Positions 38,446 through 61,160 of a stretch of 64,000 bases of DNA are shown piece by piece. The notes under the pieces are model-generated. The model was not told where the DNA came from and ran no database searches. It worked only from the letters and a program-made list of their open reading frames with translations. This stretch comes from Bifidobacterium asteroides (lineage in GTDB: Bacteria > Actinomycetota > Actinomycetes > Actinomycetales > Bifidobacteriaceae): positions 124,001 through 188,000 of the forward strand of contig NZ_QGLK01000005.1 in assembly GCF_003202755.1 (NCBI RefSeq), given 5' to 3'. Each line of letters begins with the position of its first letter. Position 1 is the stretch's first letter. The position numbers and the translations under genes were made by a program.

Positions 38446-41400
38446 ACTTCAATCCACGCTCCCGTGAAGGGAGCGACCTTACGCTCTTGTCTGTTGTAGC
38501 TTCCCGCGTCTATTTCAATCCACGCTCCCGTGAAGGGAGCGACCCAATGTTCGCCATGGCCGATTGCGGGAGTGTCTTATTTCAATCCACGCTCCCGTGA
38601 AGGGAGCGACCTTTTCATCCAAGGTGGCACACTCGCGGTTCGGATTTCAATCCACGCTCCCGTGAAGGGAGCGACCTGGGACCAATCATCAGAGATGGTG
38701 TCCTCTAACTATTTCAATCCACGCTCCCGTGAAGGGAGCGACATACAGACATTTAGACAACGCATGCAACGTACTACATTTCAATCCACGCTCCCGTGAA
38801 GGGAGCGACGCGTCTGGTCGCGGTCTTTTCTGCCTCGTTGCGATTTCAATCCACGCTCCCGTGAAGGGAGCGACGTGGTCGTATCAATCAGCGAGTTGGT
38901 CTCAGCAATTTTAATCCACGCTCCCGTGAAGGGAGCGACCACCAGCGAGGCCGACCTCTACCAGTCCCTGATATTTCAATCCACGCTCCCGTGAAGGGAG
39001 CGACCCATGTTCCTACGAGGTCTTTGCCTATGCCAAAATATTTCAATCCACGCTCCCGTGAAGGGAGCGACACTATGCGGGCAACGTCACGGATGTGGAC
39101 GCTAAATTTCAATCCACGCTCCCGTGAAGGGAGCAACGCGCGCCGTAGGCGCGGACAACGTCTACCGGTGATTTCAATCCACGCTCCCGTGAAGGGAGCG
39201 ACCCCTGAGTGCCTCCGTGTACGCGTTGGCCTCGCCGTTTCAATCCACGCTCCCGTGAAGGGAGCGACGTGTTCGTGGCGTTGTTGAAATTCCCTACGGT
39301 TGGATTTCAATCCACGCTCCCGTGAAGGGAGCGACGATGGCGCCCCAAATCTGCGACCCCAGGTTTCTATTTCAATCCACGCTCCCGTGAAGGGAGCGAC
39401 CCGAATGTATCCGTCATCCACACTGAAAAGTTTTATTTCAATCCACGCTCCCGTGAAGGGAGCGACACGCCAACGACGATCCGGACGGTGAGCTCACAGC
39501 CATTTCAATCCACGCTCCCGTGAAGGGAGCGACAACAGCGTAGTGCGACCCTCGCACACAGCATAAATTTCAATCCACGCTCCCGTGAAGGGAGCGACAT
39601 GGCATGGGAGACGGTGTGCGCGATGTCCGTGTCATTTCAATCCACGCTCCCGTGAAGGGAGCGACCTCTCGGACCTGACTGGGAGTACCACTGGCTCAAA
39701 TTTCAATCCACGCTCCCGTGAAGGGAGCGACCCGACAACGAGGCCCTGAACCTCATGCAGGACAAATTTCAATCCACGCTCCCGTGAAGGGAGCGACGTT
39801 GCATTTCCCGACGTTCGTTTCATTATTTTTGACATTTCAATCCACGCTCCACGCTCCCGTGAAGGGAGCGACTAGCGATGACGAATTTATTTCAAATCGA
39901 GATGGAATTTCAATCCACGCTCCCGTGAAGGGAGCGACCGGGCAGCAGCCAATAGCCCCGGCAGACTGTCAATTTCAATCCACGCTCCCGTGAAGGGAGC
40001 GACTCGGCGTTCGCGAAGAACACCTCGGTCGGTATCATTTCAATCCACGCTCCCGTGAAGGGAGCGACACACGGGGATCGCGGTCAGGGCCACCGTGAGC
40101 AAATTTCAATCCACGCTCCCGTAAAGGGAGCGACGTGCGAGCTTGTAGATGCCGGTGATATGGTAATATTTCAATCCACGCTCCCGTGAAGGGAGCGACG
40201 CGGGTCGCCGCAGCTGTGTCCGGCCATGTGATATTTCAATCCACGCTCCCGTGAAGGGAGCGACGGCATTCTTGGCCCCCTATGGGGCTTGCAGACTATT
40301 TCAATCCACGCTCCCGTGAAGGGAGCGACCGTATATCTTTAATGCGGCTAAAAACGATGGACAATTTCAATCCACGCTCCCGTGAAGGGAGCGACCCGCC
40401 TCCCATATCACGGTGTTCGATGCCGGCGGATTTCAATCCACGCTCCCGTGAAGGGAGCGACTGCGTGATGTGGCTGACGGCAGAAGCTTGGCGGCATTTC
40501 AATCCACGCTCCCGTGAAGGGAGCGACGCCCCTGGTGGCTGATAATCCACGTGAATACGTGATTTCAATCCACGCTCCCGTGAAGGGAGCGACGACATCT
40601 ATGCCCCGTTCGTATCGAATTCATCGAATTTCAATCCACGCTCCCGTGAAGGGAGCGACAGAAGGCAGCACATCATGCGTCACCCAACGCTGATTTCAAT
40701 CCACGCTCCCGTGAAGGGAGCGACCTGATAATCCACGCGAATACGTCGAATTCGACCTATTTCAATCCACGCTCCCGTGAAGGGAGCGACCCCCTTTGGC
40801 CTGCCACTGGGCCAAGGTGTCGGTATTTCAATCCACGCTCCCGTGAAGGGAGCGACACCTTCATGGGGATCCTGGCGGCATTCCGGGCGATATTTCAATC
40901 CACGCTCCCGTGAAGGGAGCGACCCTGTCGGTTGGCTAGGTTGGTGTTTTGCTGGTTATTTCAATCCACGCTCCCGTGAAGGGAGCGACCAGGCTTTGCA
41001 TGGACCTTAACCGTCGTTCCTTGAATTTCAATCCACGCTCCCGTGAAGGGAGCGACGCAAGCTTGGACCTAATCGAGCCCGCACGACCGGATTTCAATCC
41101 ACGCTCCCGTGAAGGGAGCGACACAGAACGCACGGACCGGTGATCATAAACGCTGGTGATTTCAATCCACGCTCCCGTGAAGGGAGCGACATATCCAGTT
41201 TGCTTGTGCCGCCAAAAGTCTCAAATTTCAATCCACGCTCCCGTGAAGGGAGCGACCTGCGCGACCTGGTAAGGCAGACCGTCCTAGAAATTTCAATCCA
41301 CGCTCCCGTGAAGGGAGCGACGAGCAGCCCGTCCATGGGCTCCCAGTGACCCCAGAATTTCAATCCACGCTCCCGTGAAGGGAGCGACGTTTCTGTAACC

Positions 41401-44400
41401 CTCTCGACCGCCAATGAGGACGATTTCAATCCACGCTCCCGTGAAGGGAGCGACAGGCCGGGTGGGGCACCAAGCCCATTATCTACATATTTCAATCCAC
41501 GCTCCCGTGAAGGGAGCGACGGACGGCTGTATCGAGTTTCTTCTCTGGCGTTTGATTTCAATCCACGCTCCCGCGAAGGGAGCGACCTGGTTGCCGGCGT
41601 AATGGTCACCGTACCGCGCGATTTCAATCCACGCTCCCGTGAAGGGAGCGACCTGGCAGCCTCATTATTACAGTAATAAGTAAAAAATTTCAATCCACGC
41701 TCCCGTGAAGGGAGCGACGACCGGTCACCAGCCATGAGGGGTCGCCTCCCTGATTTCAATCCACGCTCCCGTGAAGGGAGCGACACGATCCTAAGGGATC
41801 GCACCTATGATGAGACGCATTTCAATCCACGCTCCCGTGAAGGGAGCGACCTTTGTCTCTCGCTCCCCGACAGCACCTATTGGGCATTTCAATCCACGCT
41901 CCCGTGAAGGGAGCGACCTGATGATCGTCGTATTGCGTACCTTAATTACTAATTTCAATCCACGCTCCCGTGAAGGGAGCGACCCAGTCCGACGATCCTA
42001 TCGACTGCCGCCTTTGAATTTCAATCCACGCTCCCGTGAAGGGAGCGACAAGCCAGCCGACGACATTATCCCACGCACCGTGATTTCAATCCACGCTCCC
42101 GTGAAGGGAGCGACTTGGCTGACAAGGATAAGGCCATTGCTCTTATAATTTCAATCCACGCTCCCGTGAAGGGAGCGACTCATATGCTCATAGCTGGTTT
42201 CCAGTTTGGACCGATTTCAATCCACGCTCCCGTGAAGGGAGCGACGTTCTTCTGGAGCACAACGTCTCCCTTGTATGCATTTCAATCCACGCTCCCGTGA
42301 AGGGAGCGACAGCTGGTAGAAGACGCATCTGCCATCCGGAAGCAATTTCAATCCACGCTCCCGTGAAGGGAGCGACTCAAGCTGAACCGGATAGCGATCA
42401 AGCAGCTGAAATTTCAATCCACGCTCCCGTGAAGGGAGCGACCCGGCCGGATGGATCTGACCAATGCACCAGTCAGATTTCAATCCACGCTCCCGTGAAG
42501 GGAGCGACGATTCCCGATCCGACCATCAGCAAGGAACAGGCCATTTCAATCCACGCTCCCGTGAAGGGAGCGACCAGACTGAGCGTGCTACAGTAAGTAG
42601 CACATAAAATTTCAATCCACGCTCCCGTGAAGGGAGCGACGATAAGCAATGAGCAGCAAAAAGCAAGTAGATACATTTCAATCCACGCTCCCGTGAAGGG
42701 AGCGACACCGGCTGCCTTGACCATGCCAGCAGCACGCCGATTTCAATCCACGCTCCCGTGAAGGGAGCGACTGTTGTTTGACGTACTGGTAGGAGTCGTC
42801 GGCCAATTTCAATCCACGCTCCCGTGAAGGGAGCGACCGCAGTAATCCTTGCCAGTGGCCGGATCGTGCAGATTTCAATCCACGCTCCCGTGAAGGGAGC
42901 GACGACATGGGTAGCCGATAGAGTAGGTCCAGCGTTTATTTCAATCCACGCTCCCGTGAAGGGAGCGACACACCCTGAGTGATCCCATCCCACACGCCTG
43001 TGAAATTTCAATCCACGCTCCCGTGAAGGGAGCGACTTGCGCCGGACAGTGCCATTCTGACATACAATTGATTTCAATCCACGCTCCCGTGAAGGGAGCG
43101 ACTAGCAGACCTTATGAAGTACGCTCGGGACAGTCTCATTTCAATCCACGCTCCCGTGAAGGGAGCGACGGGTCACCAAGACAGTGTCCAGCCGCCGGAT
43201 GCGCATTTCAATCCACGCTCCCGTGAAGGGAGCGACGCATGGCCGACAAGGTTGAGCAGTTCAACGCGCAATTTCAATCCACGCTCCCGTGAAGGGAGCG
43301 ACTCGTGATACCAAGTGCACTCCAAATCAGGCTCAGATTTCAATCCACGCTCCCGTGAAGGGAGCGACCATTGGTGTACAACGGCGACAGCCCTTCCGGC
43401 ATATTTCAATCCACGCTCCCGTGAAGGGAGCGACGTATCCGCTTTAGAACAGTAGGCTATTGCCTCTGATTTCAATCCACGCTCCCGTGAAGGGAGCGAC
43501 GTCTGGACGACCTGTACGGCAGGCTTGACGATCCATTTCAATCCACGCTCCCGTGAAGGGAGCGACAACATAAACCAGTTCTATGCGCTGAATTTTAGTA
43601 ATTTCAATCCACGCTCCCGTGAAGGGAGCGACATGCTCAGCACGATACGTGCCAAAAGCCCTAGATATTTCAATCCACGCTCCCGTGAAGGGAGCGACCT
43701 GTAGTGTATAGGTCCACACCCACGCTCTTGCATTTCAATCCACGCTCCCGTGAAGGGAGCGACACCGCAGGCGCAGACCTACACGGAGGCCCTCAAATTT
43801 CAATCCACGCTCCCGTGAAGGGAGCGACCCGGGGTCTTGTACACGTGCAACTCGTCGCAGATATTTCAATCCACGCTCCCGTGAAGGGAGCGACCTTTGG
43901 CCGCGTCGGCTGGCGTTGCACCAGCATTGATTTCAATCCACGCTCCCGTGAAGGGAGCGACACAACGCTCTGAACAGCATCAAAAAGGTCGCGGGATTTC
44001 AATCCACGCTCCCGTGAAGGGAGCGACCTCTTCCAGCATGGCGGCAACCCGGTCCTGCGCTGATTTCAATCCACGCTCCCGTGAAGGGAGCGACCATCGG
44101 TCAGATACACCCCGGGGGCGTTTCTGTCATTTCAATCCACGCTCCCGTGAAGGGAGCGACCCCATGACATCGATCCTTTCTCTCATGTTCCGATTTCAAT
44201 CCACGCTCCCGTGAAGGGAGCGACGTCTTCGATTTCCTTTTTGGTGTATCTGTCCTCAATTTCAATCCACGCTCCCGTGAAGGGAGCGACGAGAGAGCAG
44301 GAGCTTGCCCCTTGCGTCTGATAATTTCAATCCACGCTCCCGTGAAGGGAGCGACGATATATCTGTCAGGATTCGGCAAACGCCACAAGATTTCAATCCA

Positions 44401-44685
44401 CGCTCCCGTGAAGGGAGCGACAGTGGCTTGACCTGGTGTACAAGGCCTATGGGGTATTTCAATCCACGCTCCCGTGAAGGGAGCGACCTTTGTATCGAAG
44501 TTCTTGGCTATCATATCAACGATTTCAATCCACGCTCCCGTGAAGGGAGCGACGTGTGCAAGGCTGCTTTTTTAATCCCGGGGAAGGATTTCAATCCACG
44601 CTCCCGTGAAGGGAGCGACTGGCATCATTCGCCACAAAGCTCGGCTTGTCCCTATTTCAATCCACGCTCCCGTGAAGGGAGCGAC
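38446..44685 (-). CRISPR. Type I-C CRISPR array, 95 repeats and 94 spacers (hand count)
   Basis: Repeats are 32 bp. In the transcribed (minus) sense each starts GTCGCTCCCTTCACGG and ends GAGCGTGGATTGAAAT, with the 7-bp stem CGCTCCC/GGGAGCG; spacers are about 33-35 bp, with a mean period of 66 bp. This is a I-C repeat, matching the cas genes. The ATTGAAAT end gives the crRNA 5' handle, so transcription is leftward, the leader is at 44686+ beside cas2, and the oldest spacers lie near 38446. Most repeats are identical. Variants occur at 38446 (ACTTC start), 38908, 39106, 39237, 40103 and 41555, and the repeat at 39834-39872 carries a 7-bp internal duplication. Confidence 0.99.
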
Positions 44686-45133: not shown

Positions 45134-45424
45134 CTATAACATCATCACTTTGTCAACAGGGATATGGCGCCTAACCCCATAGTAATGGATTCTGCGCGAG
45201 TATCTGGCACCCAGATCGTACAAGATCAAGCTGTCTTCCTGAGGATTGATCAACGTCATCAGCCGCTGTTTTAGCAGCTCACGGTCGGCGGGAGTGACCA
45301 CGCATTCGAACACACTATTTTGCACACGCTGACCAAACTTCATGCACTCATGGCCGACCTGTCGCAATCGTCTCCGGCCAGCAGCCTCACAGGTGTCGAC
45401 ATCATAAGCGACAACCACCATCAT
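45134..45424 (-). CDS. cas2: CRISPR-associated endoribonuclease Cas2
   Basis: A 96-residue, full-length Cas2 that forms the Cas1-Cas2 integrase. The ferredoxin fold begins MMVVVAYDVDTCEAAGRRRL with the conserved first-strand Asp, followed by QVGHECMKFGQRVQNSVFEC and DSLILYDLGARYSRRIHYYG. It is the last gene of the operon, 12 bp after cas1, and faces the leader. Confidence 0.97.
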   Translation of the reverse strand: MMVVVAYDVDTCEAAGRRRLRQVGHECMKFGQRVQNSVFECVVTPADRELLKQRLMTLINPQEDSLILYDLGARYSRRIHYYGVRRHIPVDKVMML

Positions 45425-45436
45425 TATTCTTTCACC

Positions 45437-46468
45437 CTACTTCCAAAACATCGGCGGATAGGCATCCATATCCCCACGTATGTATCTAGCCAACAATAAT
45501 GCCTGCACATAGGGCACCAACCCCCATGGCACTTTCTCCTTAAGAAAGGGGTGCATGATTTGCTCATTTTTGCGCTTCTGCCAGGCTGAAAGCACCTGCT
45601 TCCTCCCCTTGTCGTTAAGATAAGTTCCTCCGTTCTCTCTAATCTCGAAATCTCCGGCCTTAATTACATGAGTGTTGACCAGAGACAAAGCCAGCCGATC
45701 CGCAAAGACAGGGCGCAATTCCTCAACAAGATCCAGGGCCAGCGAAGATCTGCCTGGCCTGTCTGTATGCAAGAATCCAACATAAGGATCAAGGCCAACA
45801 CCTTGAAGTGCAGAACGACAATCTCCGGAAAGCAGCACGTAGATAAATGAGAGCAGGGCATTCATCCTATCCATCGGTGGCCTCCGGCTGCGCTGCTCGA
45901 AGTAGAAATCATCCTTATTTGTGAGGATGAGATCATCAAAGGCATAAAAGTAGCACTTCGCAGCCTCCCCCTCCACACCACGAACCGAATCCGCTGTTAG
46001 GCAACCATCCAATTCCTGCAAGGCTGCCAACAGACGGGCACTCTGCTTTTTGACACGAGGCACATTGATCCGTAAAGCGTGGTCTCGGGTAGCGCGCTCC
46101 AACACCTGTCGCGCATTGAATATCTTGCCCATGACGAACGAGGCTGCAATCGAGCAAACCTCATTATCGTCATCGGCCATGTGATACTGACGGCGTCGCA
46201 AAAGCACATTTCTGTTAGCTTCTCCAAGTACTGACCCGTAGTATTTGCCCTGCGGAGAGTAGAAGGAGAACGAGACCCCAAATTCATTACACTTGCCCAG
46301 CAAGGCCGGCGAGGCACCCTTGTAGCTGAAGCAAAGAATAGACTCCAAGGCACGCAGGGGTATCCGTCCCATGACGTGGTCTCCCTCATTCACCACAACA
46401 TTCTCCTGCTCCAGGGAAAGGTAGGCATCCTCTGTAGTGACAAACAAGGTGTTCAACATCTGTCTCAA
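45437..46468 (-). CDS. cas1: CRISPR-associated endonuclease Cas1, type I-C
   Basis: A 343-residue integrase that, with Cas2, inserts new spacers at the leader end. The N-terminal beta domain (LNTLFVTTEDAYLSLEQENV, IPLRALESILCFSYKGASPA) precedes the helical domain with metal ligands Glu in SVRGVEGEAAKCYFYAFDD, His in YVGFLHTDRPGRSSLALDLV and the downstream acidic DLVEELRPVFADRL. All are intact, so adaptation should be competent. It lies between cas4 and cas2, the standard I-C order. Confidence 0.97.
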   Translation of the reverse strand: MRQMLNTLFVTTEDAYLSLEQENVVVNEGDHVMGRIPLRALESILCFSYKGASPALLGKCNEFGVSFSFYSPQGKYYGSVLGEANRNVLLRRRQYHMADDDNEVCSIAASFVMGKIFNARQVLERATRDHALRINVPRVKKQSARLLAALQELDGCLTADSVRGVEGEAAKCYFYAFDDLILTNKDDFYFEQRSRRPPMDRMNALLSFIYVLLSGDCRSALQGVGLDPYVGFLHTDRPGRSSLALDLVEELRPVFADRLALSLVNTHVIKAGDFEIRENGGTYLNDKGRKQVLSAWQKRKNEQIMHPFLKEKVPWGLVPYVQALLLARYIRGDMDAYPPMFWK

Positions 46469-46527
46469 TGGATCATCGCTTCCCTCTGGTGCTTTTCCTC
46501 AATAACCTCTCATTGCCCAAGTTACCC

Positions 46528-47247
46528 CTACAACTCTTTCAAGGTCTTTCGAATGTAGTCAGCGGCGGAAGACTTATGCACAAGTTCAGGCAGGCAGATA
46601 TCCTTCAATGAGCATGACCGGCAACCCGTTTTCGGCTTCACCTTTGGAGTATGGCCTCGTCGATAAAGGTCCCGCATCTCCGACAGATCATCGGCCACCT
46701 GAGCGCGAAGTTCATTGTTGAGTTCAACCACTTCACGGCGCTTGGTCTGCTGGTAGAACAATGCCCCCTGGCTGATGCTGCAGGAGAGCATTTCTTCCAA
46801 GCACATGGCTTCGCCGCACAATTGCAAACGATCAGCATTATTGACCTTGCTGGAACCATGTTTGTACTCAATAGGATAGGGTTTCCACCGCCCTCTTCTG
46901 CCTGTCAATGAAACCCCATCCTGAGCCGCGTGAAATTCGACAATGTCACAATCTCCGACAACTCCTAACCTTCTGGAGAATACGCGCAGATCGCGCAGTA
47001 TCAAGGTGTCGCCGCGTTTTTCAGAAGCGTGGTAGTCGTGAGCACGTCGGTGTTCGAAGTCTCCTGCATATGTTCTGGTGTTGTCACGCCACTGCTCCTC
47101 TATGTGGATCAATGCCCATTGGCGCTTGCAGAACTCAAAATGCTGAATGCCAGACAGGGTCAGCCATTCATCCTCAGGATATTCGGCCGGCCCTGTGGCC
47201 ATGGACAAGTCCATGGAATTATCACTCATTGTAGTGTTCTCAGCCAT
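46528..47247 (-). CDS. cas4: CRISPR-associated exonuclease Cas4
   Basis: A 239-residue RecB-type nuclease that trims prespacers and selects for the PAM before integration. It has the iron-sulfur-ligand Cys in GIQHFEFCKRQWALIHIEEQ, with the remaining three in the C-terminal cluster GCRSCSLKDICLPEL, and the nuclease motifs DIVEFH and YPIEYKHGSSKVNNADRLQL. It is about 20 residues longer than average from an N-terminal polar lead. It overlaps cas7 by 8 nt. Cas4 makes selection of a TTC PAM likely for acquired spacers. Confidence 0.95.
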   Translation of the reverse strand: MAENTTMSDNSMDLSMATGPAEYPEDEWLTLSGIQHFEFCKRQWALIHIEEQWRDNTRTYAGDFEHRRAHDYHASEKRGDTLILRDLRVFSRRLGVVGDCDIVEFHAAQDGVSLTGRRGRWKPYPIEYKHGSSKVNNADRLQLCGEAMCLEEMLSCSISQGALFYQQTKRREVVELNNELRAQVADDLSEMRDLYRRGHTPKVKPKTGCRSCSLKDICLPELVHKSSAADYIRKTLKEL

Positions 47248-48172
47248 CCACCATTTCAGTCAGTTCGACCGACTGCGGAATAGCTGAAGTATCAACGGTC
47301 ACATCGTAATCCGAGAAGCTGCGCGGTGTCTCAACTTCAGGCTTATGGGCCACATGAATGCTATCGAACAGCTTATAGGAGGGAGCATCGCCAAGATCGT
47401 TGCTGTGCTTGAAGACATAGAGCTTGCGAACGGCCATCTTGCCCCTAGCAGCAGAATGATCAAACTCGAACATATTGAGAATGGCCTGCCAAAGCATGGC
47501 CAGGTCTTCCTCGCTAAATCCGGTGGTCTTTTGTGCTAGCTTTGCATTCACATAGCCATCAGCACGGTATAAACCGTAAGGAACAATTGACTTGTTGCCC
47601 ATCTCATTGTTCTTGTTCTCTTGGTCTTTTTCCGTAGTAATGGCCACCCTGGTGATGGTGACCGACTGTGGGAAAATCGGATCGATGGACCTCGAGAATC
47701 CAAGTTGCACAGGGCCACGCACCTGGCCACAGGCCAACCCGCCCTTGACGAAGGTGGTCATCACCGCGCCAAAGGTCCTGATATCGAAGAAATTGGAACA
47801 CATGTAATCGAGGATTAATCTATCCAGCTCGCCATTTTCCTTCTTGGCCTTCTTTAGGGTCTTCCCGATACTGTCCACATCGGGGTCCCCATTGACGCCA
47901 ATCGCTTTCAATGCCTCAGCATCGAGGCGGTTCAGCGGAACCTGCTGCTTAATATAAATACGCCAGGGCGCCTTATCCCCGTTAATCAATTGCACATAGT
48001 TACGTATCTTCCTCTTTAGGCAAACATCAGTAACAATTCCAATCCCGGTCTCACTATCGGTTCGTGGCATATTGCCTGATTCCGGATCTCCGTTGGGATT
48101 GCCATTCTCAACGTCATAGAGAATGGAAAAATCGTACCTATTTTGGATAGCCTTGGCAGTTTGCTCACTCAT
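47240..48172 (-). CDS. cas7: Cascade backbone subunit Cas7 (Csd2), type I-C
   Basis: A 310-residue protein that polymerises along the crRNA as the backbone of the I-C Cascade. The family start YDFSILYDVENGNPNGDPES with NMPRTDSETGIGIVTDVCLK is textbook Csd2, and ADSFDIRTFGAVM-type text (NFFDIRTFGAVMTTF, CGQVRGPVQLGFSRSIDP, SITRVAITTEKDQENK) follows. Overlaps of 8 nt with cas8c and with cas4 show tight translational coupling. Confidence 0.97.
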   Translation of the reverse strand: MSEQTAKAIQNRYDFSILYDVENGNPNGDPESGNMPRTDSETGIGIVTDVCLKRKIRNYVQLINGDKAPWRIYIKQQVPLNRLDAEALKAIGVNGDPDVDSIGKTLKKAKKENGELDRLILDYMCSNFFDIRTFGAVMTTFVKGGLACGQVRGPVQLGFSRSIDPIFPQSVTITRVAITTEKDQENKNNEMGNKSIVPYGLYRADGYVNAKLAQKTTGFSEEDLAMLWQAILNMFEFDHSAARGKMAVRKLYVFKHSNDLGDAPSYKLFDSIHVAHKPEVETPRSFSDYDVTVDTSAIPQSVELTEMVDG

Positions 48173-48566
48173 TTACAATTCCTTCTTCCTTGTTAGTTTC
48201 CTTATTGTCGTCCTTGTTCTTGCCCTTGTAGCGCTCCTGAGTCTCGAAATAATATCCAAGCTGGAAAGCACCCTGTTCAGGCAGCGATAACCTCGTCGGG
48301 AAGTTCTCGCCGATTCTGTTCATCAGATCAGCGATACGCTTGGTATAGTAAATGCGCGTTCCCGTCGGCAGTTTTCGCAGGTGCTTTTTCGCCAAATCGC
48401 CCAAGTGCGGGAAAACCACGGCTGGCATGGTCGATGCATTAGTAAAGAACCGGTCACCAATCGTGGTATTGATACCAGGATTCGCAGCATGTTGTATGTC
48501 CTCATACAGGGCGAACAGCCGTCCTAGGACATAAGGCACATTGGTGCTTTCTTTGTTGATGGACAC
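48165..48566 (-). CDS. cas11c: Small subunit Cas11c, from an internal start in cas8c
   Basis: Inside cas8c, a perfect Shine-Dalgarno AAGGAGG (48581-48575) sits 8 nt before an in-frame GTG at 48566-48564. Translation from there gives 133 residues (start VSINKESTNVPYVLGRLFAL) ending at the cas8c stop. Type I-C systems are known to make the Cas11 small subunit from such an internal site in cas8c, and the size fits. The protein is mostly helical, with FALYEDIQHAANPGINTTIG and FPHLGDLAKKHLRKLP. Confidence 0.75.
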   Translation of the reverse strand: MSINKESTNVPYVLGRLFALYEDIQHAANPGINTTIGDRFFTNASTMPAVVFPHLGDLAKKHLRKLPTGTRIYYTKRIADLMNRIGENFPTRLSLPEQGAFQLGYYFETQERYKGKNKDDNKETNKEEGIVNE

Positions 48567-49958
48567 TTGCAATACCTCCTTAGGGCATTGGTTGTTTTGA
48601 TGACGAAGAAAATACGCTTTGATGATTGCCGCCTTGGCGCGGGGAACTTCATGCTCAACGCCAATGCGGTTCTCGACAGCAGTCAGGAGCGACGTAGGAT
48701 AGGGCGCACCTGTAAGAATGGCCTTAAATAGGTCGGAAACTGTACGGGGGGAAGCTGGAATCCTCTTTTTCCCACCAGCGGCAGATGGCACAGTTTGCGC
48801 AAGGAGCATCCACACAGGTAGATCGTGACGTTTATCAAATTTCGGTCGTTCGATATCCAAATCCGCATAATGCCGACGTACATGTTCCATGTAACTGCCA
48901 TAAGTGTCCTTCAAGAAGAAGGACACCGAAAGCCTGGCCGCATTAGGGGCAAGCCCAAGGATGTAAAAATGCTCATCCGGATTAAGCCTGACACCATTGA
49001 AATCAACGGGGTTCCCCTTAGACAAGGCTGTGACAGTGGCTATTAGATCCTGTTGGTCAACCCCTGCAGCGCCTTCAATGCACAAGTTCATCTCAGCTGA
49101 GTACTCAGCCTGTCCTGACTCTGCCCAGGAAACAATCGTCAAGGAACCATCATTGACAGTTCTTGTATACTGATCGTCTTTCAGCACAGTATTTAAGGCT
49201 GTAGTATAAGCAAAGGCTTCACGTTTGCTCATAGGAGCATTTTGATCCTGCTTTTTGTTGTAGGAAAGATATGCTGGCGCGTTAAAAGACACTAGTGCTG
49301 ATCCACTGGATTGTGCGTTGCGGACGCCTCTGATATTTGGATGAGTAAGAGCAGGGACGACAGCTTGGCCTGAAACAACACTTTGCATGGTTTCAGAACC
49401 AGCGGCCGTTTCACCACTGTCATCGTCATCCGAAGAGAACCATGAATCCCAGTATTTCTGCATGGTTCGGTTTTTAGATAAAGGTAAGCCGTTAAAGCAG
49501 AGGACAAAATTACCGGTTAAGGCCTTCTTCCAGTCCCCTTCGCCTAATTTCTCCTCGACAACTGCCGCTTGAGGCGTCCGGGAAAAGAAAGCGAGCACTG
49601 CACGGGCTTCATCATCTTCGGCGTTTGCAAGCACCTGACGATGCAATTCAGCAGCAGCTGCAAAGCGCTTGGCCGCCTTGTCTGTTGCACCGTTGGCATC
49701 TGCACCTAGCAGGTAAGAGGAGTTGTCGCAGAGGAAATTGGCCTGAATTTTCACCGTTCGTAATGCATGTGCCGGAACAGGCATCATACGTCTGAACTGC
49801 TTGTTCTTTGTCAATGTCCCAAACGGAATGACATGGGTTATGGCCCCGTCATCCGCTATGTCCAGTCCCCACGGAACATTTTCAACGCTGTATCCATACC
49901 GCGGTGCCTGACCAGCCTCCACCAGCCGGTCGTAAAGTCTGACTAGTTCGCCAATCAT
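48165..49958 (-). CDS. cas8c: Cascade large subunit Cas8c (Csd1)
   Basis: A 597-residue type I-C large subunit, which recognises the PAM and helps open the target duplex. It begins MIGELVRLYDRLVEAGQ, and the family text GYSVENVPWGLDIADDGAIT, CDNSSYLLGADANG, FVLCFNGLPLSKNRTMQKYW, LVSFNAPAYLSYNKKQDQNA and FYILGLAPNAARLSVSFFL is present. The C-terminal ~133 residues are also made separately as Cas11c. It overlaps cas5 by ATGA (49955-49958) and cas7 by 8 nt. Confidence 0.97.
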   Translation of the reverse strand: MIGELVRLYDRLVEAGQAPRYGYSVENVPWGLDIADDGAITHVIPFGTLTKNKQFRRMMPVPAHALRTVKIQANFLCDNSSYLLGADANGATDKAAKRFAAAAELHRQVLANAEDDEARAVLAFFSRTPQAAVVEEKLGEGDWKKALTGNFVLCFNGLPLSKNRTMQKYWDSWFSSDDDDSGETAAGSETMQSVVSGQAVVPALTHPNIRGVRNAQSSGSALVSFNAPAYLSYNKKQDQNAPMSKREAFAYTTALNTVLKDDQYTRTVNDGSLTIVSWAESGQAEYSAEMNLCIEGAAGVDQQDLIATVTALSKGNPVDFNGVRLNPDEHFYILGLAPNAARLSVSFFLKDTYGSYMEHVRRHYADLDIERPKFDKRHDLPVWMLLAQTVPSAAGGKKRIPASPRTVSDLFKAILTGAPYPTSLLTAVENRIGVEHEVPRAKAAIIKAYFLRHQNNQCPKEVLQVSINKESTNVPYVLGRLFALYEDIQHAANPGINTTIGDRFFTNASTMPAVVFPHLGDLAKKHLRKLPTGTRIYYTKRIADLMNRIGENFPTRLSLPEQGAFQLGYYFETQERYKGKNKDDNKETNKEEGIVNE

Positions 49959-50611
49959 GAGCTCATCCTCGGATCAGTTGCATCCAGCACGCCGTTAATC
50001 AACTCAGCTCTGAAAAACATAGGTTGCGGGTCCGCAGGGTCTCGATAGTCCATGTCGTATAACATGTACCCCAGATCCCGATGACCATTTTCGAATCCCT
50101 TGGGCTGACCCTTATCGACATCCCAAAGCCGAAAATCGACAGGGAACTCCCGTGTTCCGAAATAAGGGTGGTGATAGTACTGCCCGTTCTGAGCTCGTCT
50201 ATTGAACATGCTGATGAACTTAGCCGGCGTATCCCCTGCAGCAGCTTTGCTATTCATATCAAAATGTGCCTCAATCACATAGTGAACATCCCGCAGAATG
50301 GTGGAGGCACGCTGCTGAATGTCTGAGGAAGCATAGATCGCGCTGTCTTTGGACGGATCATTGATCATCGACCGGATAGTATCGGCCGATATCACGCTGC
50401 TGACCTCATTGCGACGAACACTGGTGAATCTGATGGGATTCATAACCACGATCCTGTCAATCCGCCAGATCATGCCCGGATGCCAGAACACAGCCTCCAG
50501 AATCCCACGTGCCGCCGATGGCGTCATCACGTCGTACGAGACTCTCTCTACTTTCATTTCTGGTCTGGTGAAGAGGGCGTACGGACCCCAGACCTCAAGT
50601 TGTACTGTCAT
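49955..50611 (-). CDS. cas5c: CRISPR-associated protein Cas5 (Cas5d), crRNA-processing endoribonuclease
   Basis: A 218-residue Cas5d. In type I-C, which lacks cas6, this protein cuts pre-crRNA at the base of the repeat stem and caps the 5' handle. The start VQLEVWGPYALFTRPEMKVE, then RVSYDVMTPSAARGILEAVF and WHPGMIWRIDRIVVMNPIRF, and the C-terminal YFGTREFPVDFRLWD are typical. It would also process the solitary repeat upstream of the operon if that repeat is recognised. It is 45 bp downstream of cas3. Confidence 0.97.
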   Translation of the reverse strand: MTVQLEVWGPYALFTRPEMKVERVSYDVMTPSAARGILEAVFWHPGMIWRIDRIVVMNPIRFTSVRRNEVSSVISADTIRSMINDPSKDSAIYASSDIQQRASTILRDVHYVIEAHFDMNSKAAAGDTPAKFISMFNRRAQNGQYYHHPYFGTREFPVDFRLWDVDKGQPKGFENGHRDLGYMLYDMDYRDPADPQPMFFRAELINGVLDATDPRMSS

Positions 50612-50656: not shown

Positions 50657-52801
50657 TCAATACAGCAGCCCGTTTTGAGGCAACTGATCTTCATCGACCT
50701 GCAGACCTGTAGCACTGTCGTACATGCCCATGTCCAGCAGAACAAATGCATCGTCATCCGACCTGGCACCGTGCTCAGCCAAAGCGGATATCTTCCCAGC
50801 CTCTTTGAGTCTGTCCAGCTGTCTAGGCCAGACATTGACCGCGTACCGGCCCAATCTGCGGAACAGCCCTCGCGTATAGCAACGAGGATCAGTCAGCTGG
50901 GCACACAGGGTGCTCGCTTCTTCATTGACCGGTATATAGACGGGAACAGTTGGCGTATCAATCAGCTTGAAAAGCTCAGCAATCTGAGCGAACGGCATAC
51001 GGCATCCTGATATTCCACGCTCATGAGCCTTAAGAATCTGACGCTGATCGAGACTCTCGTCCCCTCGCATTCCAAAGAGCCTGGTGAAATATTCATGAAT
51101 CGCTTTTGAAGATGCCAGGTCAGCATTGCCTTTCCGTACCAACTCGAAAGCCAACATATTCTGTTTCAAAAACGAAACCTGGCCCTCATCAGTCGAAAAA
51201 ACATGAACCAATGAGGCATCCGCTTCACGTCGACCTTCTCTATTGCAACGGCCAGCTGTCTGAAGAATCGAATCAAGACCAGTCTGTTCCCTATATGCCT
51301 CAGGAAAATCGACATCCACTCCGGCCTCTATCAGAGACGTGGATACGACCCTGCAAGATTCTCCCTGGGTGAGGCGATCCCGTATCTGCTTCAGAAACCG
51401 TTCCCTGTCATAGGCACATTGCAGTGTAGTCAAGCAGAAAGTACCGTCTTCAAAGCCATGCTTTCGCACCGCTCCGGAGATGTACTGCGCCTCCTTACGT
51501 GTGTTGACCACGCACAGAACCTGATTATGGCCTTCTACAGCTTCAGCCATCTCATCCATGTTCTTATGACCGTCATCGACGATTCGGTTGCGCCTGAATT
51601 CCGAGCGCTCCTTTTCGCTTAATGGTGCAATTTCAGGGATGGTCAGATTCGGGCATTGAAGAGCCTGAGCAAACAGTTCCTGCAAGGCCGGCTGTGTTGC
51701 TGTGCACAGCACCGCGGTGACGTGATAGTTGGCAACCAGTTCAGCTATGGCCTGTACACATGGTTTCAGCTGAGGCAAGGGCAAGGTCTGGGCCTCATCG
51801 AAGATCACAACAGAGTTAGCTATGTTATGAATCTTCCTGAGTTTAGAGGCCTTGTTGGCGAACAGGCTTTCGAAAAACTGCACAGCAGTGGTTACGATAA
51901 CCGGCATGTTCCAGTTCTCGGCCGCAAAACTGCGATGCAAATCGTTTGCTGTAAGCTCGTCTTCCTCTTTTAATTGGAAAGCAGCATCTGCATAGTGTGG
52001 TAGAACCGCATCTGACCCAAGGAGGGTTTCGAATTCCTTTACCGTCTGGTCGATGATTGACGTGTAGGGCACGACGTAAATAACCCTATCCATATGGTGT
52101 GTTTTGGCGTGTTCAAGCGCGAACGTAAGCGAGGAATCAGTCTTGCCGCCGCCTGTGGGAGCGGTCAGCGTGTATAGACCTGGATTCCATTCAGGATCGG
52201 CCCCGTGAGTAAGGCAGTCACGCAATATGGCATTGCGTTTTTCATTCAACGACGTACTCGCCTTCGCCGACAGGAAGGACTCAGCCCTGCGCTCCATGAT
52301 TTCAGCAAGCGCCTTGATTCTGATTGACTGATGCTCACGCAGCTGCCCAGCCAGCGCTTTACTGATCTCACGTAATTCCTGTGGAGGCGGCATGATCGAT
52401 TTGGACAGACGATCGGGACCGAGATCCTGAAGCAGCTGCTCGAGAAATGGTGATTCATCGCGCTCTACTTTGCCATTGACAAAGAACTCAGCATCCAGCC
52501 GATCCGCATCCACTAGCGCTGATTCGTGCATACGGATACGCATCATGTCCGAGAAATGTGAGCCCAAAGAAGGAAGCGGCTTGACTTCGGGAAGAGTGAT
52601 CTCATCCTTCCAATGCGATGCATCAGGGTTGGGACGCTTCATTCTGCCGACCAAGGTGCTTGAATTCTCGGTATCAATCTGATTGCCAAAATCCGGCAAA
52701 CCAGCATGATGCCCTGCAATGGCAAATGTGGCTTCTTGAAGATGGAGCTTATAGGCTACTTTCATCCCGTATGAAGAGTGATTGACACTACTGCTCATCA
52801 T
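50657..52801 (-). CDS. cas3: Cas3 helicase-nuclease, main fragment (second half of HD domain plus helicase)
   Basis: A 714-residue protein with intact SF2 helicase motifs: Walker A LTAPTGGGKTDSSLTFALEH, DEAD-box-like VVIFDEAQTLPLPQ, CTATQPALQELF, and motif V/VI TSLIEAGVDVDFPEAYREQT with QTAGRCNREGRREA. The N-terminus starts inside the HD nuclease: VNHSSYGMKVAYKL (third HD His) and AIAGHHAGLPDFG (His-His motif). The first half of the HD domain is a separate frame (52788-53036), overlapping by 14 nt. An AGGGAGG box lies 6 nt before the second ATG (52798). Cas3 is normally one protein in type I-C. Confidence 0.93.
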   Translation of the reverse strand: MMSSSVNHSSYGMKVAYKLHLQEATFAIAGHHAGLPDFGNQIDTENSSTLVGRMKRPNPDASHWKDEITLPEVKPLPSLGSHFSDMMRIRMHESALVDADRLDAEFFVNGKVERDESPFLEQLLQDLGPDRLSKSIMPPPQELREISKALAGQLREHQSIRIKALAEIMERRAESFLSAKASTSLNEKRNAILRDCLTHGADPEWNPGLYTLTAPTGGGKTDSSLTFALEHAKTHHMDRVIYVVPYTSIIDQTVKEFETLLGSDAVLPHYADAAFQLKEEDELTANDLHRSFAAENWNMPVIVTTAVQFFESLFANKASKLRKIHNIANSVVIFDEAQTLPLPQLKPCVQAIAELVANYHVTAVLCTATQPALQELFAQALQCPNLTIPEIAPLSEKERSEFRRNRIVDDGHKNMDEMAEAVEGHNQVLCVVNTRKEAQYISGAVRKHGFEDGTFCLTTLQCAYDRERFLKQIRDRLTQGESCRVVSTSLIEAGVDVDFPEAYREQTGLDSILQTAGRCNREGRREADASLVHVFSTDEGQVSFLKQNMLAFELVRKGNADLASSKAIHEYFTRLFGMRGDESLDQRQILKAHERGISGCRMPFAQIAELFKLIDTPTVPVYIPVNEEASTLCAQLTDPRCYTRGLFRRLGRYAVNVWPRQLDRLKEAGKISALAEHGARSDDDAFVLLDMGMYDSATGLQVDEDQLPQNGLLY

Positions 52802-53036
52802 AGGCCTCCCTAATCATCCTCTGGAATTCCGCCGAATACTTGCCTATGTCATGAAGAAGGCCTGTATCCAGACCCATATCAGCCTGATCTTGGTCATACA
52901 GATAACCAGCCAGCCTGCCGGCGAAGGCTGCATCAAGGCATCCCGTCATTACCAGATGCTGCACGCAGACCTCGAAACCATGATCTTTTGAAGTGCGGGC
53001 CAGATACTCATCTACCTCGTCGCCTTCGGTCGTCAT
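52788..53036 (-). CDS. cas3: Cas3 HD-domain N-terminal fragment (frame-split from cas3)
   Basis: An 82-residue frame with the start of a Cas3 HD nuclease: EYLARTSKDHGFEVCVQHLV (first HD His) and the metal-binding GLLHDIGKYSAEFQRMI. It stops at a TAG (52790-52788) where the next block of the HD domain continues in another frame of the downstream ORF. A one-base shift would restore a single continuous Cas3. No classical slippery heptamer is visible. Either cas3 is inactivated by frameshift, or the two parts are made separately and assemble. It is coupled to the preceding 41-codon leader ORF by an ATGA overlap. Confidence 0.8.
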   Translation of the reverse strand: MTTEGDEVDEYLARTSKDHGFEVCVQHLVMTGCLDAAFAGRLAGYLYDQDQADMGLDTGLLHDIGKYSAEFQRMIREAYDEQ

Positions 53037-53158
53037 GCGATCATCTCTTCCTGACTTGGGTCACTGTTGAGCGGTTGCGCTGTATTGACCTGAATCCAAG
53101 CCGTCAATCGCCATACGCAAACCGGCTTCCCGCATATAAACCCAGAATCCTCAACCAT
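53033..53158 (-). CDS. 41-residue leader ORF of the cas operon
   Basis: Starts at an ATG (53158) with an excellent AAGGAG box 9 nt upstream, and its stop overlaps the cas3 start (ATGA, 53036-53033). The predicted start is about 40 nt after the operon transcription start. The peptide (MVEDSGFICGKPVCVWRLTA, then WIQVNTAQPLNSDPSQEE) has two Cys and matches no family I know. The ribosome-binding site and coupling suggest it is translated, perhaps to drive or regulate cas3 translation. Confidence 0.55.
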   Translation of the reverse strand: MVEDSGFICGKPVCVWRLTAWIQVNTAQPLNSDPSQEEMIA

Positions 53159-53204: not shown

Positions 53205-53233
53205 AATATAAACCTATTAATGAATAATGTCAA
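53205..53233 (-). promoter_or_regulatory. Promoter of the cas operon
   Basis: Minus-strand TTGACA (53233-53228), a 17-bp spacer and TATATT (53210-53205): a nearly perfect sigma-A-type promoter, predicted to start transcription near 53198. It is the only strong promoter in the region upstream of cas3. Confidence 0.85.
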
Positions 53234-53270
53234 TTCGGTTTTTGGTTATTTAGAAAGGACTATATATTAC
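53234..53270 (+). promoter_or_regulatory. PAM and protospacer-like target of the solitary guide RNA, abutting the cas -35 box
   Basis: On the plus strand, TTC (53234-53236), the type I-C PAM, is followed by GGTTTTTGGTTATTTAGAA. Positions 1-5, 7-9, 11, 13-17 and 19 match the guide encoded at 53388-53370. Mismatches are at 6, 10, 12 and 18; complementarity is lost after 19. The PAM touches the -35 hexamer (53228-53233). Bound Cascade would cover the promoter, and the partial match should not license Cas3 cleavage. An AT-rich imperfect palindrome (53261-53283) lies within and beyond the target. Confidence 0.75.
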
Positions 53271-53323: not shown

Positions 53324-53357
53324 GGTATAAAGGCTCATCAGCCTAGGCCGATGAGCC
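53324..53357 (-). terminator. Intrinsic terminator of the solitary guide RNA
   Basis: In minus sense GGCTCATC (53357-53350) pairs with GATGAGCC (53339-53332) around the inner palindrome GCCTAGGC with one mismatch on each side, and is followed by TTTATACC. It ends the guide transcript before the cas promoter. Confidence 0.8.
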
Positions 53358-53413
53358 CTAGCCTTATTCTACTAAACAGCCAGAAACCATTTCAATCCAC
53401 GCCTTGCGGCGAC
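53332..53413 (-). ncRNA. Solitary crRNA-like RNA gene upstream of cas3 (CreR-like autoregulatory guide)
   Basis: In minus sense: a 25-nt shortened repeat (53413-53389) keeps the leading GTCGC and the full TGGATTGAAAT handle, but has a reduced stem, CGCC-gcaa-GGCG region, in place of the 7-bp array stem. A 31-nt guide-like segment follows (53388-53358, starting GGTTTCTGGCTGTTTAG), then an intrinsic terminator instead of a second repeat. The guide's first 19 nt match, in register, the PAM-flanked site at the cas promoter. No spacer in the array shares this sequence. Its own promoter was not identified. It fits the CreR class of cas-repressing RNAs described in other CRISPR types. Confidence 0.75.
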
Positions 53414-53599
53414 TACGTCTGTATTCTGACCACAGCATTCAGCAATGCCGATCATGCATACAAGCCAACCACAATCCAAGCATGCGCCATAGTGACGTTT
53501 TAAGTTATAGCTAGATTGCTTTGCGCTACAGACACTTTATAAGTTACTCCTCTTCAGCTACTGAATTTGCTTGGCGCAGTCATTGACCTTATCCGCTAT

Positions 53600-54261
53600 C
53601 TACAAAGTACGGCGGCGGTACTCCATAGGAGGCATACCTACTTTGGATTTAAAAGCGCTGCAAAAGACGGACAGCTTGGAATATCCGCAATTCAGAGCAA
53701 TCTGTTCGACAGGCTTGGAGGAATTGCTGAGCATACTTCGAGCCGCATTGATTCGCGCGTCCATAACATAGGCATGAGGCGTATAACCGGCTGCCTTTTT
53801 GAATACCCTAATGAAGCTAGGCTCACCGAGACCAGTCATAATGGCAAGCTGCTGATTGGCAATATATGTCCATCACCATTTGAATGTCATGGCCGCTCCT
53901 GTCAATGTCACCCTGCCCCACCGGCGCATCAACGAACCAGGTCAGAATGTCCGTCACATATTTCGCAAGCATTGTTTCGGATAAATAGGTGCCGGACCGA
54001 AATATGTTGTAACTGGTCTTTAGCGGATGCAATGCCTTTTCATCCCGCTCCAGGGCGAAGATCGGCCCTCGCTTGGCAATTATCTGCTGATAATAAAACC
54101 GGGCGGCCTGACCATCGAAGTGCATCCAAAGTATCTCTGTCGGCCCCACAGTCTGATAGTGAAAGTATTTGGCAGCAATCCGAAAGTACAAACTGACCAC
54201 CATGGGCAACGCCCCGCATAGCATTGCTACGCGGTGTGAGCTCGCCTGATTTCAAATACAT
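53600..54261 (-). pseudogene. Frameshifted AraC-family transcriptional regulator
   Basis: Three overlapping frames spell one AraC protein. 54261-54180 gives a cupin-side fragment (GVAHGGQFVLSDC); 54180-53860 continues YFHYQTVGPTEILWMHFDGQ in a second frame; 53855-53600 gives the double-HTH (LGEPSFIRVFKKAAGYTPHA, RINAARSMLSNSSKPVEQIA, GYSKLSVFCSAFKSKVGMPP). The join near 53858 needs a one-base change (ATATAT-T-GCCAAT), and another shift is needed near 54180. The gene is therefore inactive as read. It lies 200 bp from the solitary guide RNA, and its former targets are unknown. Confidence 0.8.
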
Positions 54262-60276: not shown

Positions 60277-61160
60277 ACATGCACGATACCTTGCTGCAAT
60301 ATAGTTATATCTACGAGCGCAGCAAACACCGATGAGTGCGGTGTCTTTGCGGAAACGCCGAGTCAGTACGAGCTACCATTATTCACTAGCTACCGCTTCC
60401 CATCAGGGACACCTATCCGTGGGGCAACAATAATCAGTGAGGTTTAGACGACAACATCGTGCACACACGGGGCATGCCTGTCTTTGTTCTGAAAGATAAA
60501 GCGGTACTCCTTACAAATCCCTCCAGTCAGCATAGGAACCTTCCAGTCCCTAGGCCTTGCCTCAGACATAAGGGCTCATGTCTAGGAAATCAGCTTGAAC
60601 AGTCCGTTGGAAACAGGCAATCGCCTCAATGCAGTAAATCGCCCGACCCGGCACCACCATCAACCAGTACCTGTGCCAGCTTTTAAGGGTCCCGCCCACA
60701 GCATAAGGGAGAAAATACCGGCGTGGCTATGGTGGTCGGGCTTCTTGCCATGAGTATTATGGCAACAAACCTCAGCCGCAGGATCCCATAGCAGCGGCCA
60801 CTAACACTTCGCACGAGTAAGAGGCCGGACGACTCCCCCAAGACAAGTTCGGCCATTCGGGTGGCCCAGCAATAATCCCAAGTAAAACCTGGGCCACCCA
60901 TCTACTTTTTTATACCTTTTCATGAATGGGGTCCAATCATGTTCAGGTTGTAAGGGCCGCCTGTCCCTCAAGCAGCTTTGAAGCAACCCAATGCACGCCC
61001 TTCTTAATCGTACTGAAACCAGATACAGATCGTATGCCTGTGTGGGACAAGACAAGTGAAGGCCATAACCAAGCCTGACGTACCTAGAATCATTTCAATC
61101 CACGCTCCCGTGAAGAGAGCAATCACCCGAGTACGAGCAGTTGATGAGATCTATCCATAA
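60277..61160. other. Gene-poor region downstream of fas
   Basis: About 880 bp holding an orphan CRISPR repeat (61092-61123) and otherwise no supported gene. Minus frames at 60683-60901 and 60801-61055 have no start signals or recognisable motifs. Confidence 0.35.
61092..61123 (-). repeat. Orphan type I-C CRISPR repeat
   Basis: A 32-bp copy of the array repeat with three differences, all in the 5' part of the transcribed sense (ATTGCTCTC instead of GTCGCTCCC). The 3' half, including the ATTGAAAT handle, is perfect. In minus sense the following 34 nt begin GATTCTAGGTACGTCAGG. It is 16 kb from the array and 8 kb from the cas operon, with no second repeat. Confidence 0.85.

Follow-up and report, generated by a model that had tools for sequence, protein, structure and literature searches.

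Why does a type I-C cas locus of Bifidobacterium asteroides, a bee-gut-type bacterium, carry, next to its cas genes, a solitary guide that matches their own promoter? A precedent is CreR, a crRNA-like RNA encoded within the cas locus that is partly complementary to the cas promoter and by which the effector genes are reported to repress themselves (Liu et al. 2023, Cell Host Microbe). A sequence-only reading of the window, that is, of the whole 64-kb stretch of DNA analysed, had proposed that Cascade loaded with the solitary guide represses the operon that encodes it, in the manner of CreR.

The guide belongs to a compact unit on the minus strand. The unit begins with a solitary degenerate CRISPR repeat, GTCGCCGCAAGGCGTGGATTGAAAT (53389..53413), which is predicted to form a short hairpin and to provide the 5' handle of the guide RNA. 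Compared with the array repeat, its stem was shortened and its handle was identical. The full guide, GGTTTCTGGCTGTTTAGTAG, is read from 53388, and its positions 1-19 as aligned with the target, GGTTTCTGGCTGTTTAGTA, occupy 53370..53388. At the end of the guide RNA, a stem-loop was predicted by folding (GGCTCATCGGCCTAGGCTGATGAGCC, 53332..53357), and it is probably a terminator that replaces the second repeat; a consensus terminator scan did not call it. As in CreR, a crRNA-like unit with a repeat-derived handle lies beside cas genes. A search of Rfam found no family for the unit, and no promoter was found for the solitary guide RNA itself. Upstream of the unit, at 53567-54224, we noted by eye the remains of an AraC-type-like regulator gene, apparently frame-broken; similar sequence was also present upstream in three related genomes (G003, G008, and G011).

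The genes downstream of the targeted promoter form a complete type I-C operon, all on the minus strand. A 41-aa leader ORF (53033..53158) has a good ribosome-binding site and overlaps the cas3 start by ATGA. It is followed by the N-terminal half of the Cas3 HD domain (52788..53036; TIGR01596, E=9.5e-7, below cutoff), the rest of the HD domain with the Cas3 helicase (50657..52801; TIGR01587, above cutoff), Cas5c (49955..50611; TIGR01876, above cutoff), Cas8c (48165..49958; TIGR01863, above cutoff), Cas7 (Csd2; 47240..48172; TIGR02589, above cutoff), and cas4, cas1 of the I-C type, and cas2, which were found by profile search (45134..47247). The signature genes for Cas5c, Cas8c, and Cas7c and the gene for Cas1c all scored above the NCBIfam cutoffs, as type I-C membership demands. 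A repeat search placed the canonical I-C array, with 94 copies of GTCGCTCCCTTCACGGGAGCGTGGATTGAAAT, at 38446..44685 on the same strand. Because a complete I-C cas operon follows directly downstream of the unit, we rejected its assignment to the Racr RNAs, which are solitary repeats in viruses or plasmids away from cas genes. Elsewhere in the window, another degenerate repeat stands alone at 61092-61123 (minus strand), beside a fatty-acid-synthase-like gene (repeat, ATTGCTCTCTTCACGGGAGCGTGGATTGAAAT; guide, GATTCTAGGTACGTC); it was dropped as a candidate second regulator, its best PAM-flanked target in the window scoring only 9/13.

The target of the guide occupies 53237 to 53255 on the plus strand, which reads GGTTTTTGGTTATTTAGAAA from 53237, and follows the PAM TTC (53234..53236, plus strand). 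On the minus strand, the cas operon promoter has its -35 box, TTGACA, immediately next to this PAM, from 53233 down to 53228, and after a 17-bp spacer its -10 box, TATATT, which ends at 53205 (53205..53210). The two boxes carry 11/12 consensus bases; the promoter scan by itself is weak evidence, with 2 found versus 1.3 expected. Guide and target matched at positions 1-5, 7-9, 11, 13-17, and 19 (15/19), and mismatches fell at 6, 10, 12, and 18 and then at almost every position beyond 19. The position 10 mismatch is an extra one, outside the flipped positions. This register, the four mismatches, and the arrangement of PAM and promoter boxes had all been claimed from the sequence alone, and they were reproduced base for base by alignment and promoter scan; the title of that reading had omitted position 10, which its text gave. 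As with CreR, the guide is partly complementary to a PAM-flanked site in the cas promoter. A plasmid search with the promoter region gave no match.

The match was then compared with chance over 15 non-flipped positions (1-5, 7-11, and 13-17). The target scored 14/15, and the second best among 2100 TTC sites in the 64-kb window scored 10. Among 20,000 shuffled guides scored at the local TTC sites, the highest value was 13, seen once. The best score of the 93 array spacers at the cas promoter region was 10/15.

Related species were compared in a six-species set consisting of the window and five genus genomes with the same I-C cas3 (G002, G003, G004, G008, and G011). In all six, a unit of repeat, guide, and hairpin lay upstream of cas3, on the strand of cas3, and the guide matched a site whose PAM is 0-2 bp from its own -35 box. 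The architecture of repeat, guide, and stem-loop was common to the set, with a T-run that was strong in G002, G003, and G008 and weak in the window. The PAM was TTC in four of the five relatives, the exception being TTT in G008. Over 13 positions (1-5, 7-11, and 13-15), the guide scored 12-13 at its own target in five of the six species. In G003, guide GGTTATGTTGTTATT pairs with target GGTTAAGTTGTAATT, and in G004, guide GGTCTTTTGATTATT pairs with target GGTCTATTGATAATT; both pairs have mismatches only at 6 and 12. The target in G011 (L010 / L005) is one base short opposite guide position 6, and all 15 non-flipped positions pair after the shift. For the covariation count, a gap of one base was placed at position 6 of this target. 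A scan for single-base register shifts at 6 or 12 in loci without a match found that only G011 needed one. Either the assembly is in error here or nature itself has put the flipped-base model to the test; if the missing base is real, Cascade would tolerate the loss of the flipped target base opposite position 6. In G004 (L009, ~828-850), a second repeat-like sequence, GTCGCTCTCTTCACGGGAGCA, was observed just upstream of the unit, which suggests that the unit in this genome may descend from a mini-array.

These genomes also bear on whether guide and promoter drift independently, the outcome by which the sequence-only reading could have failed. Across all species pairs, 81/90 guide differences at positions 1-5, 7-11, and 13-15 were mirrored by both targets, whereas at positions 6 and 12 the figure was 0/17 (raw counts, uncorrected for shared ancestry). 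Guide and target thus change together, and no independent drift was seen. The maintenance of pairing among relatives, which agrees with CreR, was borne out by a swap test over the 42 distinct units of the wider scan described below, in which the guides scored a mean of 12.4/13 at their own targets and 4.5 at other targets. The unit might instead be the remnant of a decayed array, its spacer match being a vestige of old self-targeting that has no present function. Its repeat is indeed degenerate and present in a single copy. However, this explanation is contradicted by the covariation, by the maintained spacing of PAM and -35 box, and by the recurrence of the unit in four phyla, and we regard it as highly improbable. 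These results indicate that selection on the pairing is required.

The leader ORF raises a different explanation, an addiction module like CreTA, in which the guide would repress a toxic small gene on the shared promoter, so that the cell could not do without Cascade. The space between promoter and cas3 does hold a short ORF with a good ribosome-binding site, in G003 and G008 as well as in the window. Nevertheless, the ORF is truncated in G004, absent from G002, and replaced in G011 by another ORF that likewise overlaps cas3 by ATGA, yet the guide-target pair is kept. In most other loci examined, the target lies ~14-150 bp from the cas5c start, which leaves little or no room for another gene such as a toxin. 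In CreTA a toxin promoter is targeted and not that of cas, whereas the promoter targeted here leads into the cas operon. An addiction module is therefore improbable.

A break within the HD domain divides cas3 into two ORFs in different frames, with an overlap of 14 nt (AGGGAGGCCTATGATGAGCAGTAG). This arrangement was kept in all six species, down to 64% protein identity, and cas3 was in one frame in 43 other I-C loci. Conservation in six species speaks against decay and for programmed frameshifting or coupled translation.

We next extended the search to type I-C loci more widely. In a first scan of all 112 fetched loci, a lone handle was sought whose guide matched a TTC-flanked site no more than 400 bp away. 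Forty loci were positive, compared with 0-1 when the guides were shuffled; other trinucleotides in place of the PAM gave mostly 0-1 loci, and TTT gave 3. The refined scan yielded 43 loci with 42 distinct units from four phyla, the hosts being Bifidobacteriaceae, Clostridia and other Bacillota, Rhodobacterales, and one planctomycete. At the thresholds used, 63 of 106 I-C loci had no detectable unit, some for missing upstream DNA. In one of the positives, L053, which may be spurious, guide and target are 871 bp apart. Loci L022-L032 represent a divergent second I-C lineage in Bifidobacteriaceae, for which the I-C assignment was confirmed on one member.

Cascade of type I systems flips out each sixth base of the guide. 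Among the 42 units, the match rate was 95-100% at positions 1-5, 90-100% at 7-11, 86-93% at 13-15, and 60-64% at 16-17. It dropped to 12% at position 6, 21% at position 12, and 19% at position 18, and was at background after 18. Positions 6, 12, and 16-20 had not been used in picking the matches. The drops at 6, 12, and 18 together with the fade after 17 are the signature expected for flipped sixth bases and a pairing of about 17 bases. The rates at 6, 12, and 18 were below base composition, as selection for mismatch would produce, without reaching significance (p=0.08).

The same profile bears on whether the unit is a full self-targeting guide that licenses Cas3 cleavage and is tolerated through a broken or inhibited cas3. 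This would agree with the consensus PAM, with the perfect seed at positions 1-5, and with the two-ORF cas3 of the window. However, complementarity across units is restricted to the PAM-proximal part and fades after position 17, as for CreR, and the 43 I-C loci with a one-frame cas3 include many that carry such a unit. We find cleavage-licensing self-targeting scarcely plausible.

The position of the unit varied with the layout of the cas genes. Where the gap between cas3 and cas5c was at least 150 bp, the unit lay inside the gap in 31/31 loci, mostly divergent from cas5c, and where the two genes were contiguous (gap below 150 bp), it lay upstream of cas3 in 12/12; this count is partly circular, as a unit in the gap itself widens the gap. 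These results indicate that the target is upstream of the transcription unit with cas5c, cas8c, and cas7, and that the guide tracks the promoter of the Cascade genes. In some Rhodobacterales (L079 and L090), we observed by eye a GIY-YIG-type-like small ORF in the cas3-cas5c gap and no detectable regulatory guide.

Conservation of the unit in six species, covariation, spacing from the -35 box, and six-base periodicity over 42 units argue for the autorepression by Cascade that had been proposed for this locus. From the sequences, the unit is in all likelihood a type I-C cas-regulating RNA, a CreR. In the mechanism we propose, the lone degenerate repeat would be transcribed together with the guide into an RNA ending in the hairpin. 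Its handle is presumably matured by Cas5c, and Cas5c, Cas8c, and Cas7 would assemble on it. The loaded Cascade would find the TTC by the -35 box, open the DNA, and pair over about 15-19 bases with each sixth base unpaired, and on the promoter it would block RNA polymerase. The pairing would be too short for a full R-loop, and Cas3 should not be licensed to cut; we infer this absence of cutting, and the repression, on the strength of the short pairing and of studies in other subtypes. The blocked promoter is the one that makes Cascade, so that Cascade would limit its own synthesis in a negative feedback loop. Expression of cas should then rise when Cascade is inhibited or when array crRNAs compete for it. 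The targeting complex of the system thus very probably acts as a thermostat that regulates how much of the system is made.

CreR has been named for subtypes I-B, I-E, and V-A (review PMC13131331), and two further reviews describe it without mention of I-C (PMC12737573 and PMC12948488). The unit of the window resembles CreR as a crRNA-like RNA in the cas locus with a partial match to the cas promoter. Unlike CreR of those subtypes, it belongs to I-C, with presumed processing by Cas5c and no Cas6, and it has one repeat ending in a hairpin instead of a second repeat. For type I and V-A systems, Shmakov et al. 2023 (NAR 51:8150) reportedly predicted standalone repeats in a systematic way, with spacers that are in part complementary to cas promoters. 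Their tables may already include I-C elements, in which case the present result would be an independent rediscovery with covariation evidence. CreA of the type I-B CreTA has one or two degenerate repeats and partial guide-promoter complementarity, and represses through Cascade (Li et al. 2021; PMC9458426). The unit shares with CreA the degenerate repeat and the partial complementarity, and would likewise act through Cascade, but its target is the cas promoter and not a toxin promoter. The RNA anti-CRISPRs known as Racrs work as repeat decoys and are carried by viruses and plasmids, at a distance from cas genes; one of them, RacrIC1, comes from a B. pseudocatenulatum prophage (PMC10651486). Like RacrIC1, the unit is a solitary I-C repeat; unlike Racr RNAs, it is part of the host's cas locus, and its guide is conserved and matched to a target. 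The tracr-L RNA (Workman et al. 2021) is reported to be a natural guide that autoregulates Cas9 through a short match to the promoter of its own cas gene. The unit likewise supplies a natural guide whose complementarity to its own cas promoter is short, but tracr-L is an unrelated RNA of a type II, Cas9 system.

The principle of CreR is already known; what is new here is the subtype I-C, the breadth, and the sequence evidence. The natural guide-target pairs would provide a dataset of productive, non-cleaving Cascade pairing in which the six-base flip is visible in evolution. Where endogenous I-C systems are used for genome editing or CRISPRi, competition between introduced guides and the regulatory RNA is expected to shift Cascade levels, and anti-CRISPR proteins or heterologous guides are predicted to raise cas expression in I-C hosts. 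We lean slightly towards the broader view that guide-directed autorepression is general and long-conserved in type I-C across at least four phyla, with the guide tracking the Cascade-gene promoter, a pairing of about 15-17 bases, and the flipped positions free. The proposed CreR would extend RNA-guided self-control to subtype I-C, including that of Bifidobacterium and gut Clostridia.
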